From NCBI RefSeq assembly GCF_001261775.1, contig NZ_LN868537.1, positions 868,001 to 932,000 on the forward strand: a stretch of 64,000 bases of DNA, given 5' to 3'. Within the stretch, counting starts at the first letter, position 1, and each line of letters begins with the position of its first letter. Origin of the DNA: Anaeromassilibacillus senegalensis. Its GTDB lineage: Bacteria; Bacillota; Clostridia; Oscillospirales; Acutalibacteraceae. The position numbers were made by a program, and so were the translations under genes. Shown piece after piece: positions 4,138 through 18,811 of this stretch. The notes beneath the pieces were generated by a model. It was not told where the DNA came from and ran no database searches. It saw only the letters and a list, made by a program, of their open reading frames with translations.

Positions 4138-4386
4138 ATGTTTGATGATAAGACAATGACCTTCTCTCTGGGGCAAAACCGTGAGGATGATATTAAACAG
4201 ATTCTGACGATCGTGTATGATGCCCTGAAGGAAAAAGGATATAATCCGATCAGCCAGTTGGTCGGCTATATTTTGTCCGAAGATCCAACATACATTACCA
4301 CACATAACAACGCGCGCAGCCTGATCCGCAGAATCGACCGTGACGAACTGCTTCAGGTCCTGCTCAAATCCTATCTGGGCGATTAA
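4138..4386 (+). CDS. ireB: IreB family regulatory phosphoprotein (UPF0297)
   Basis: An 82-residue protein with the characteristic IreB start [12 protein letters not shown] and the conserved segments [17 protein letters not shown] and [12 protein letters not shown]. In Enterococcus, IreB is a small substrate of the PASTA kinase IreK, phosphorylated on N-terminal threonines, and it affects cephalosporin tolerance. Thr6 and Thr8 are available here. That role is known for the family and only inferred for this gene. In many Firmicutes it is followed by ruvX and a DUF1292 gene; here it is followed by an unrelated-looking 98-residue protein. An AGGTG site precedes the ATG. Confidence 0.92.
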
Positions 4387-11869: not shown

Positions 11870-12934
11870 ATGGATTATATCGGTTTGAAATGCCCTGTGT
11901 GCGGCAAACCGTTTACCGCTGAAGACGATATTGTCGTCTGCCCGGAATGCGGCGCACCCTATCATCGCGCCTGCTACCAGGAAGCCGGACATTGTATCTT
12001 TGAAGAAAAGCATGGTACCCCGGATGCCTGGAAGCCGCAGAGCGAGGAAGAGCCGGAAGCGCAACCGGGCAAAAAGTGCTTCCGCTGCGGCAAAATGAAC
12101 GCGGAAAACGCGCTGTTTTGCGACCAGTGCGGGCAGATGCTCAGCGAGGATGCCGCCGGAACCCCGCCGCCCGCGCCGGGAAGCTACGTGCCATACGGCA
12201 AACAAACGAGGAACGACGCCCCGCCCTATCAGAACCCGGGTATGCCCAACCAACCCTACGGGATGCCAAACCAGCCGATGCCTTTTGCAATCGACCCTAC
12301 CGGCGGCGTGCGTCCGGAAGAACCGATTGAAGCGGATATTACCGCTGAGGACATGGCTAAATTTGTCCAGAACAACCCTCAATATTATGTCCCGGCTTTT
12401 TTCAACTTAAAACGCTATCGCCGGAATCGGTTTAATTTTGCCGCATTTTTATTCTCCGGAGGCTGGATGCTCTACCGTAAACAGTATAAATGGGGAACCA
12501 TCATCACGGTTCTGCAGGCGCTGGTCTACGTACTTTCTACATACGTTTCCTTTTGCTTTACCACGCCGCTGATCACCGACCTGATGCGTCAGATCGGTGT
12601 GGACCTCAGCACCGCCTATCCCACTATGGAACAATCTCTGGAATTCATGTCCCTGCTGATGCAGCAGGCGCCGTGGCAGATCTTTTTGATCTGGGTGCCC
12701 AGTATCCTGTCTTTTGTGCGTCTGGGAATTATGCTGTTTACCGGTTTTAACGGAAACCGGATGTATTTGAACCATTGTACCAGCAGGATTCAGACCATCC
12801 GCACGGAAAACCCCGACGCAGCAGATTGTGCCGTGCGCCTGCAGCTGCAGGGCGGCGTCAACACTTCTTTGGCAATCTGTCTGCTGGTCTGTTACATGAT
12901 CGTGATTTATTTGCCTCAGCTTTTGCTATACTAA
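11870..12934 (+). CDS. Membrane protein with prokaryotic RING-type zinc finger, zinc ribbon and DUF2628 region
   Basis: A 354-residue protein. Residues 8-42 carry Cys8/Cys11, Cys24/Cys27, His32/Cys35 and His41/Cys42 in CPVCGKPF...CPECGAPYHRACY, the arrangement of the prokaryotic RING finger family 1. A second zinc ribbon (CFRCGKMN...CDQCG) is at about 70-90. A Pro/Asn-rich linker with PNQPYGMPNQP repeats follows, and then a DUF2628-like part with NLKRYRRNRFNFAAFLFSGGWMLYRKQY before three to four hydrophobic segments. The zinc modules are probably cytosolic. Partner and process are unknown. The start is ATG after AAGGAGG, and the gene has its own promoter. Confidence 0.8.
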   Translation: MDYIGLKCPVCGKPFTAEDDIVVCPECGAPYHRACYQEAGHCIFEEKHGTPDAWKPQSEEEPEAQPGKKCFRCGKMNAENALFCDQCGQMLSEDAAGTPPPAPGSYVPYGKQTRNDAPPYQNPGMPNQPYGMPNQPMPFAIDPTGGVRPEEPIEADITAEDMAKFVQNNPQYYVPAFFNLKRYRRNRFNFAAFLFSGGWMLYRKQYKWGTIITVLQALVYVLSTYVSFCFTTPLITDLMRQIGVDLSTAYPTMEQSLEFMSLLMQQAPWQIFLIWVPSILSFVRLGIMLFTGFNGNRMYLNHCTSRIQTIRTENPDAADCAVRLQLQGGVNTSLAICLLVCYMIVIYLPQLLLY

Positions 12935-16239: not shown

Positions 16240-17997
16240 TTATTCAGACATACGAGGCGCCGTCTGTCCTTCGGTTCCAACCGAAGAATCTTTCTCTGAG
16301 GAAGACGAGGGTTCTAACTCATCCTTTTGGGGGCCACTGCTGATGATAATAACCACCTGTGAACCATACGCAAGGAGGTCGCCTTCGCTTTTGTTCTGGT
16401 ATCCAATGGTCAGCCCTGCTTCTACAACGTCGCTGTATGCCTCTGTTTTTGTTGGAACAAAGCCTGCCGCCGTCACGGTTGTGGATGCTTCAGCCAGTGT
16501 CATTCCAAAAATGGACGGGAGCTTGCGCATTTCCGCGCCCTTGCTCACCACGACAACAATGGAAGTCCCGTACTCCACCATTTCGCCTGGCGCCGGAGAT
16601 TGGGAAATAATCTCGCCCTCCGGTACCTCATCGTTAAACTGTTCCGAAGAACGGAGTATCTGGTACTCTCCGCCGGAAGACGTCGTTTCTGTAAGGGCCG
16701 CATAATTCTGTCCGATTAATGTGGGTACTTCAATCAACTCGCCTGTGTTTTCCGCGGGAATGCTGGAAGCAAGGGGCGCCATCGCGGGAGATTCCGAAGG
16801 AATGCTGGAGCTGGCCTCTGCCGGTCCACTTGCATTCGACGAGGAATTGGCACCAGACTGCATCGGTACCATTCCCCCATTGGACAACCAGAAAACACCG
16901 ATCGCCGTAAAGAGCACCAATGCCAGGGCACAGGGAATGAGTACCCATGCGGCTGCAGGTGCACCGCTTTTCTTCTTCTCCGGATAAGAGGAGGATGCAT
17001 GCAGCAGCACCTCCGGGTCCTCAATCGTCGCCGTAATCGTAGGCGCGGCGGAAAGCTCCGCGCGCAATCGTTCAAACGTAGCGGTTCTCTGATCCGGCAT
17101 CACCTGCAAGGCGTTCGCCAGCGCTGTCACCACGTGCGGCGGAATGGTTCGCAGGATCGAAGTGGAGATCAGCAGCCGGGCGTCCGTACGGCGTTTTAAA
17201 GCGTCCTGCGGCAGCTCCCCTGTCAACGCGAAGAAGATGGACGCGGCAAAACCATAGACGTCCGTGGCTTCATCCGGCGCGTAGCCAACCACATATTGCT
17301 CGATGGCTGCGCAGCCGGGCACCAGATGCATCGGCAGTTCCGTATCCGCGCGGCGGACCGCCGGAATGCAAAAACCGCCCAGCTTCATCTTCCCATCCTT
17401 CATGATACAGAGGGTGTCCGGGGAGATCCCCAGGTGATTAATCTTCGCCGCGTGCATGGTACTGAGCGCGGACAAGACCGGCATAAACAGCGGGCGGGCT
17501 TCATTCCAGCCCAAGCTACCGCCGCTGCGCTCGATAAAATAGCGCAGCGTAATGCTTTCCTCCCACTCGGAAACCGTATATGCCGTGTGGTTTTCTTCAA
17601 AAATATCATAGCTTTGAATGATTGGGGTCAGCTCGCGCAGATGCGCAACCTCACGGGAAAAGCTTAAAAAATCAGCCAGATACTGGCTGAAGGCCAGTTC
17701 GCTTCCCGCCTTTACCCGAATCTCCGTGCTGCCGTCCGCTCTCCCGCAGATTGCCTGCGGAAAAAACTCCCGCAGCTCAACCGGTATATGCAAAACAGTA
17801 TCATATCCGATATAAAGGGTTCCTTCTCCATTGCTGGATTTGGCGCTTCCCACAATGTACCGGTCCTGCAGAACCGTGCCAACCGGCAGCGCATACGGCT
17901 CCTGTACACCGCCCGACTGGCATCCGCAATGGGGACATTCACTTTTTCCGGCTGTATCGGACATGCAGTTCATGCACAGATTTTCAAAGCCAGTCAT
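16240..17997 (-). CDS. Transmembrane PASTA protein with zinc ribbon and degenerate (pseudo)kinase domain
   Basis: A 585-residue protein. A zinc ribbon (Cys8, Cys11, Cys21, Cys24) comes first, then a protein-kinase-like domain (about 41-315), a hydrophobic segment (about 349-371), a Ser/Pro-rich stalk and two PASTA domains (about 417-553). The architecture is that of Firmicutes kinases that sense cell-wall fragments. The catalytic residues are lost: the VAIK lysine is replaced in VELR (73-76), the glycine loop is degraded, HRD reads HLG (188-190), and DFG reads GGF (207-209). The fold remains readable (ATDVYGFAASIFFALTGELP). Inference: a non-catalytic scaffold or allosteric partner. It could be an atypical kinase with displaced residues, but three losses together make that less likely. 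ATG at 17997; it stands 67 bp downstream of the yebC stop. Confidence 0.85.
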   Translation of the reverse strand: MTGFENLCMNCMSDTAGKSECPHCGCQSGGVQEPYALPVGTVLQDRYIVGSAKSSNGEGTLYIGYDTVLHIPVELREFFPQAICGRADGSTEIRVKAGSELAFSQYLADFLSFSREVAHLRELTPIIQSYDIFEENHTAYTVSEWEESITLRYFIERSGGSLGWNEARPLFMPVLSALSTMHAAKINHLGISPDTLCIMKDGKMKLGGFCIPAVRRADTELPMHLVPGCAAIEQYVVGYAPDEATDVYGFAASIFFALTGELPQDALKRRTDARLLISTSILRTIPPHVVTALANALQVMPDQRTATFERLRAELSAAPTITATIEDPEVLLHASSSYPEKKKSGAPAAAWVLIPCALALVLFTAIGVFWLSNGGMVPMQSGANSSSNASGPAEASSSIPSESPAMAPLASSIPAENTGELIEVPTLIGQNYAALTETTSSGGEYQILRSSEQFNDEVPEGEIISQSPAPGEMVEYGTSIVVVVSKGAEMRKLPSIFGMTLAEASTTVTAAGFVPTKTEAYSDVVEAGLTIGYQNKSEGDLLAYGSQVVIIISSGPQKDELEPSSSSEKDSSVGTEGQTAPRMSE

Positions 17998-18064: not shown

Positions 18065-18811
18065 TTATTCATCGTCATCCTCATCCGCATTTTCCCAGTT
18101 ATGCCAAACATTCTGCACATCGTCGTTGTCTTCCAGTGCATCCAAAAGCTTCCGCATCTTAATGATGGACTCTTCTTCTGTCAAAGCGGTATAGGTGCTC
18201 GGAACCATTTCCACCTCGGCGGAAACGAATTCATAGCCCTTTTGCGTCAGGTCGTCCAGGACGCCGCTGAAGTCCTCCGGCTCGGTATATACCTCAAATA
18301 CATCCTCGTCGGCCTGAAAATCCGAAGCACCCGCCTCCAGGCAGTCCTCCATGACCTTGTCCTCTTCCAGCCCCTCTTTTTCGATCACGATAACACCCTT
18401 TTGAGAGAACATAAAGGAAACGCAGCCTGTGGTTCCCAAATTGCCGCCAAACTTGTCAAAATAGTGGCGCACATCGCCTGCCGTACGGTTGCGGTTGTCC
18501 GTTAGGGCCTCCACGATTACGGCGATGCCGTTCGGGCCGTACCCTTCATAGGTTATGTTTTCATATTTGGTATCGTCGCCTTCGCCCGCTGCCTTTTTGA
18601 TGATACGGTCGATATTTTCGTTCGGTACGTTTGCCGCTTTTGCCTTTGCAATACAGTCCTTCAACTTGGAGTTGGAAGCCGGATCCGGACCGCCGCCCTC
18701 TTTTACAGCAACTGCCAATTCACGGCCGATTTTGGTGAAAACCTTCGCTTTTGCGCCGTCGGTCTTTTCCTTTTTCCTTTTAATGTTGTTCCACTTAGAA
18801 TGGCCTGACAT
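18065..18811 (-). CDS. YebC/PmpR family protein
   Basis: A 248-residue protein with the family start [32 protein letters not shown] and the segments [20 protein letters not shown] and [13 protein letters not shown]. YebC-type proteins have long been called transcriptional regulators; recent work links some of them to translation at difficult proline stretches. The sequence does not decide between the roles. A very acidic C-terminus (ENADEDDDE) is usual. AGGAGG precedes the ATG. Confidence 0.94.

Follow-up and report, generated by a model that had tools for sequence, protein, structure and literature searches.

PASTA Ser/Thr kinases, among them PrkC, PknB, StkP and IreK (NCBIfam model NF033483), share a kinase fold followed by one transmembrane helix and then PASTA repeats, and PASTA domains bind wall fragments. 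Bacterial pseudokinases have been little studied experimentally; the accessible text of PMC12599244 names the groups ActPs1-3, GLW, CP1, DYD, DLHK and EssB, while the word PASTA appears in it a single time, within a reference, and the word zinc is absent. According to the same text, ActPs3 of M. tuberculosis is a dead kinase domain forming part of the wall-pathway membrane protein MviN/MurJ; it is a PknB-regulated scaffold with an activation-loop deletion that recruits an inhibitor of wall synthesis, and its description mentions neither a PASTA domain nor a zinc ribbon. The same text also presents the type VIIb secretion protein EssB/YukC as a Firmicute membrane pseudokinase. In C. difficile, the membrane kinase-like protein CD2148 has one Asp and one Asn of the motif replaced, functions with PrkC and changes PrkC-dependent phosphorylation of CwlA, and its authors could not exclude a pseudokinase (PMC9674922, accessible text); many phosphosites are under CD2148 control in that account, which makes it the weaker pseudokinase precedent. 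Our literature search, with subscription journals mostly outside its coverage, found no description of a PASTA pseudokinase or of a zinc-ribbon PASTA kinase.

We analysed a stretch of 64,000 nucleotides of Anaeromassilibacillus senegalensis DNA (the window), in which a frame at 16240-17997 on the minus strand is open throughout from an ATG start and encodes a product of 585 aa with homologs in genomes of the same family. Analysis with Pfam together with a structural model confirmed the order that a preliminary description had proposed, namely a zinc ribbon, a kinase-like domain, a membrane helix and two PASTA domains. All coordinates of these parts lie on the minus strand. The zinc ribbon carries Cys 8/11/21/24 (17926..17976), which are present in 130/130 sequences including the window protein and in 116/116 non-redundant ones. 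The pseudokinase domain covers residues 36-320 (17038..17892; Pfam Pkinase E 1.5e-07), the transmembrane helix residues 349-372 (16882..16953), PASTA domain 1 residues 422-486 (16540..16734; 44.6 bits) and PASTA domain 2 residues 487-556 (16330..16539; 36.8 bits). The two PASTA domains were found by Pfam with E 1.3e-19, and the Pkinase score straddled the gathering score of 31.7 bits, with 31.5 bits in one search and 33.1 on DNA. The PASTA kinase model NF033483 gave 117.6 bits, below its cut-off of 450.

Structure prediction with AlphaFold2 from 29 aligned sequences (mean pLDDT 80.2, pTM 0.54) produced a kinase fold at about residues 34-321. The pLDDT was mostly 85-95 in the kinase domain (31-310) and both PASTA domains, below 50 in the linkers, and lower within the kinase domain at 211-240, the activation segment (63-80), and at 271-280 (77). 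With Foldseek and VIA-align, the best matches of domain 34-321 were PpkA (Z 29.2, 3.3 A, 278 residues) and PknB (Z 25.7). The architecture was surveyed in alignment A2, which holds 83 of the 116 non-redundant sequences: a hydrophobic 19-mer was present in 83/83, and Pfam PASTA domains in 82 of 83, with two in 81, three in one and zero in one. A family member of 398 aa at L117 5551-6744, whose genome measures about 1.1 Mb, ends without PASTA domains.

Residue counts were taken from 129 homologs plus the window protein, reduced to 116 non-redundant sequences at <90% identity. Left out of these counts were the PrkC rows L011, L002 and L142_1598, a Lachnospiraceae sequence with Lys and HLD (L081), the intact zinc-ribbon kinases L156-L162 and L164-L167, and a 160-aa fragment (L163). 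As previously read, VELR at 73-76 stands for VAIK, with R76 (17770..17772) replacing the Lys, and this position is R in 89, H in 15, K in 8, Q in 2 and C in 2 of the 116. HLG at 188-190 (17428..17436) was likewise correctly assigned as the replacement of HRD; position 190 is Gly in 102, Ala in 12, Glu in 1, Leu in 1 and Asp in 0/116. The loss of DFG also stood, but its placement as GGF at 207-209 was one residue early, since KLLDFGA of the intact zinc-ribbon kinases aligns with G208-F209-C210; the replacing residues are GFC at 208-210 (17368..17376), and Asp208 is found in 18/116. The glycine loop is degraded as described, reading S54, N56, G57, E58 and G59 against GxGGFG in intact relatives. 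A further lesion, absent from that description, is the loss of the alpha-C Glu, replaced by F113 (17659..17661) and found in 0/116.

With the window protein included, the HRD Asp and the alpha-C Glu are each gone in 116/116, the VAIK Lys in 108/116 and the DFG Asp in 98/116, and K76, E113, D190 and D208 are all missing in 92/116. The catalytic-loop Asn195 is retained in 38/116, and N195 together with D208 in only 2/116. Recurrence of the same losses through 116 non-redundant sequences is more than chance, and on sequence grounds the catalytic loss in the PASTA pseudokinase is old, not local. The homolog set was gathered by likeness to a dead query and may favour dead ones, and the intact zinc-ribbon kinases retrieved with the same query serve as a check on that selection bias. 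These results support the earlier proposal of a PASTA-bearing membrane pseudokinase.

Residues that hold the fold are kept. Across alignment A2 (83 members), H188, G228, E233, Y248 and R304 show no variation, and D246 is retained in 111/116. Gains of the clade over 28 intact zinc-ribbon kinases are N56 (82%), acidic side chains at 58 (109/116), basic ones at 76 (112/116) and G190 (88%). Conserved replacement residues thus occur, at 76 and 58, but none plainly restores catalysis. The acid near the glycine-loop tip, E58 in the window protein (17824..17826), is mostly Phe in intact relatives; it would lie opposite the Arg at the ATP-phosphate site, which suggests that the nucleotide pocket may be closed by the protein's own salt bridge. 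The same conserved pair could also reflect retained binding of some ligand. Set against the zinc-ribbon kinases, W164, R168 and F171 of helix E looked specific to the clade; a novel interface there was considered and dropped because the genome's own PrkC has Trp at 164 too.

To place the family, trees were computed without the catalytic columns. All sampled pseudokinases formed one group (SH-aLRT 97 with 64 rows, 100 with 43 rows), which adjoined the zinc-ribbon kinases, with PrkC as the outgroup; these were quick trees without bootstrap, in which many inner forks do not resolve and the positions of long rows, L155 among them, are uncertain. If the preliminary description meant a degenerate PrkC, this was not borne out, as the domain falls beside the zinc-ribbon kinases. 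The alignments and trees indicate a family of PASTA pseudokinases that is conserved and stands closer to the zinc-ribbon kinases than it does to PrkC. Unlike PrkC-type kinases, the window protein has an N-terminal zinc ribbon and lost catalytic residues, and its domain groups with zinc-ribbon kinases. With the intact clostridial zinc-ribbon receptor-like kinases (L156-L188, L209-L214) it shares the zinc ribbon, the fold-holding residues and, following beta 3, E77 and P80, whereas those kinases retain the glycine loop, the VAIK Lys, the alpha-C Glu and the HRD and DFG Asp. Several intact zinc-ribbon kinase clusters contain PP2C genes, and the window gene lies outside any such cluster.

PASTA repeats also occur on intact zinc-ribbon kinases: 4 of the 13 scanned at full length bear 4-8 repeats, a single genome accounting for two of the four and two further genomes for one apiece. 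The architecture therefore extends beyond the dead clade. Loci L209-L214, from other genomes of the order, hold arrays of two to five zinc-ribbon kinases, some with 4-8 PASTA repeats; PP2C genes were confirmed in L209, L210, L211 and L214, the last of which also has a WXG100 gene. In another family of the class, a zinc-ribbon kinase-like protein read from about 1441 (+) of L185 has lost its motifs (VLIDE, HGN) and shows no PASTA domain by eye, a motif loss separate from the PASTA pseudokinase clade. L212 14466-16355 (HGNIRPEN) may encode another motif-losing zinc-ribbon kinase-like protein.

The pseudokinase was surveyed in 200 genomes (135 genera) of the same taxonomic family. By hand count, a match was present at E<=1e-30 in 179 genomes and at E<=1e-50 in 174; these are sequence matches, in part of which the motifs were read, and the best E of an intact zinc-ribbon kinase among the matches listed was 1e-46. 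Twelve of the 158 high-quality family genomes had no match at E<=1e-30, and 7 of these were 0.9-1.1 Mb in size (hand count). Among the named hosts are Clostridium sp. D33t1, Anaeromassilibacillus and Caproiciproducens. When motifs were read in a search of the order (147 genomes), dead members turned up in family f26 (8 genomes) and in f23 (one genome) as well. In a search of the class (291 genomes), motifs were read at 19 fetched loci outside the order, some rows being partial at the zinc ribbon and L183 yielding no row; 18 of the 19 retain Lys76, Glu113, Asp190 and Asp208, and L185 does not. A general sensor of sporulation or germination was considered and rejected, since the pseudokinase and Spo0A_C dissociate both ways. 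Counted by hand, at least nine genomes of >=90% completeness have a pseudokinase match (E<=1e-50) without Spo0A_C, seven Spo0A_C-less genomes being uncounted, and 11 genomes have Spo0A_C without a pseudokinase match at E<=1e-30.

Selection was estimated against the copy of a same-genus genome (L044; one pair). Overall dN/dS was 0.063, with 0.032 in the pseudokinase domain, 0.024 and 0.042 in the PASTA domains and 0.26 in the linker. Across 210 pairs from 21 genomes, mean identity was 0.577 for the pseudokinase domain versus 0.846 for the PrkC kinase domain, and that of the PASTA parts was alike (0.445 and 0.408). Judged by these values, the pseudokinase domain is under purifying selection, but constrained less than a working kinase.

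The described pseudokinases resemble this protein in part. ActPs3 is likewise a dead kinase domain in a bacterial wall-pathway membrane protein. The window protein, however, is not fused to a MurJ flippase: it gave no Pfam flippase match, and its model has one transmembrane helix. Juxtamembrane Thr residues after the pseudokinase domain occur at 320 in 35/83 and at 322 in 29/83 members, none strongly conserved, and the two FHA genes of the genome both lie away from the pseudokinase gene; an MviN-like FHA docking on a phosphorylated tail may nonetheless occur. EssB/YukC was not among the three Pfam families matched by the window protein at E<=1, and a distant relation could escape Pfam. To our knowledge, EssB/YukC has neither PASTA domains nor a zinc ribbon. 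The DYD kinases, which are also membrane proteins of Firmicutes, have in common with the family the beta-3 Lys-to-Arg change (R in 89/116) and the lost alpha-C Glu (0/116). The DYD motif itself is absent from the family, with Asp210 in 1/116 and Tyr209 in 0/116, and the family's HRD Asp is lost as well. CD2148 is without PASTA domains in the accessible text of PMC9674922, and we liken it to the window protein by description only. The MviN, EssB and CD2148 cases are precedents and not proof for a pseudokinase mechanism.

A true PrkC-type kinase elsewhere in the genome, which the preliminary description had supposed, is indeed encoded, at C11:397622-399298, directly behind a PP2C phosphatase gene. 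This PP2C-prkC pair lies about 0.49 Mb away from the pseudokinase gene. PrkC scored above the NF033483 cut-off in 181 of the 200 family genomes, and because it is near-universal in the family, co-occurrence is weak evidence for a partnership. The gene ireB lies in the window and is not adjacent, as noted earlier (about 4147-4377, plus strand), and at a distance of 12 kb it carries little weight. Linkage of the pseudokinase gene to a PrkC operon was dropped: prkC is near it in 2/115 homolog loci, both of one genus, which may be chance, and 71/115 loci reach >=4 kb upstream (>=1 kb in 110/115). In that genus, L142 898-6947 and L103 1598-7080 carry on one strand PP2C, prkC, a gene we take to be rsgA (with a presumed thiN in L142) and the pseudokinase gene.

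Directly upstream of the pseudokinase gene, on the same strand and 67 bases away, is yebC (18065..18811, minus strand; Pfam Transcrip_reg and TACO1_YebC_N), and the two genes may be co-transcribed. A same-strand yebC lies <=400 bases upstream in 32/115 homolog loci, including the distant L155 of another family. At 17/115 loci a downstream opposite-strand HTH gene and a histidine-phosphatase-family gene are found, and one of these, L031, has yebC as well. No steady wall-synthesis operon partner was seen among the 115 loci.

Taken together, the evidence for what the PASTA pseudokinase is is good, and that for what it does is moderate. The reading we favour, with a probability of roughly 0.55, is that of a catalytically dead membrane receptor whose pseudokinase domain signals through partner binding, with PrkC or the wall machinery as the likeliest partners. 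By analogy, the two PASTA domains would lie outside the cell at the wall, joined by the single transmembrane helix to the cytoplasmic pseudokinase domain and N-terminal zinc ribbon. The PASTA domains would bind peptidoglycan or its precursors, and an occupied or clustered receptor would alter the docking of the pseudokinase domain on partner proteins. Such partners would most likely be PrkC, as the PASTA kinase that is active, or else the phosphatase and substrates of PrkC, together with the wall-synthesis machinery, so that the protein would act as a co-receptor or scaffold passing on the state of the wall through binding, not phosphorylation. The catalytic Asp is gone from all homologs counted and the fold and PASTA domains persist, a combination that points to signalling by binding; PrkC is a plausible partner. 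Against this reading stand the lack of a steady wall-synthesis operon partner among the loci compared and the lower conservation of the domain relative to the PrkC kinase domain. HER3 is a comparable catalytically silent partner among eukaryotic receptor kinases. A HER3-like version, in which a lineage-wide second PASTA receptor with its pocket shut by E58 and R76 would form a silent half-dimer with the PrkC kinase domain, live and dead receptors jointly reading the wall, is doubtful.

Several other explanations were weighed against the favoured reading. PASTA domains can position proteins at the septum, and the dead receptor might be a wall-tethered scaffold that directly serves the septal or cell-wall machinery outside the PrkC circuit. 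This is a possible, if somewhat unlikely, account; the rarity of prkC near the gene and the usual neighbourhood of yebC or of HTH and histidine-phosphatase genes favour it, and nothing specific speaks against it. Less probable is continued binding of a nucleotide or other anion by the domain in the absence of phosphotransfer, or a newly acquired activity; such cases are modelled for DYD kinases and described for SelO and SidJ. The basic beta-3 position (112/116) and the acid at 58 (109/116) fit such binding, as do the DFG Asp kept in 18/116, the catalytic-loop Asn in 38 and the Lys in 8, and DYD pseudokinases, with Lys changed to Arg and the alpha-C Glu lost, have been modelled with ATP (PMC12599244, accessible text); on the other side, N195 and D208 are both kept in only two of the 116 sequences, Asp190 in none and Asp210, the DYD position, in one.

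WNK and CASK are kinases that work without the usual Lys or DFG. Unusual catalysis of this kind is nevertheless very improbable for the present family, as all 116 sequences have another residue, mostly Gly or Ala, where HRD has its catalytic Asp. Equally improbable is a functionless, decaying kinase remnant: the domain is less conserved than that of PrkC and the 12 family genomes without a match, 7 of them of 0.9-1.1 Mb, would agree with decay, but a dN/dS of 0.03, the stable two-PASTA layout, the invariant zinc-ribbon Cys and the dead form in three taxonomic families argue against it, and it is disfavoured because of this selection signal. The PASTA pseudokinase has a sensor domain whose class of ligand is known, and the majority of the genomes sampled from this clostridial family encode it. 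Host genomes mostly hold a normal PrkC too. The protein lets the idea that a wall can be sensed without phosphorylation be tested, and it warns that annotation pipelines calling it a PASTA Ser/Thr kinase could mislead.

The same genome holds other proteins of related kinds. Contig C10 encodes another PASTA protein, and on contig C12, L215 1204-4038 (minus strand) encodes a kinase-like protein with the catalytic loop HGDIKPSN that adjoins an FHA gene. In the window, at 11870-12934 on the plus strand and about 3 kb from the pseudokinase gene, we observed a membrane protein that has a Prok-RING_1 domain (E 3e-26) as well as a second zinc ribbon and also matches DUF2628; its gene cluster was found in 9/100 loci compared, the window included.
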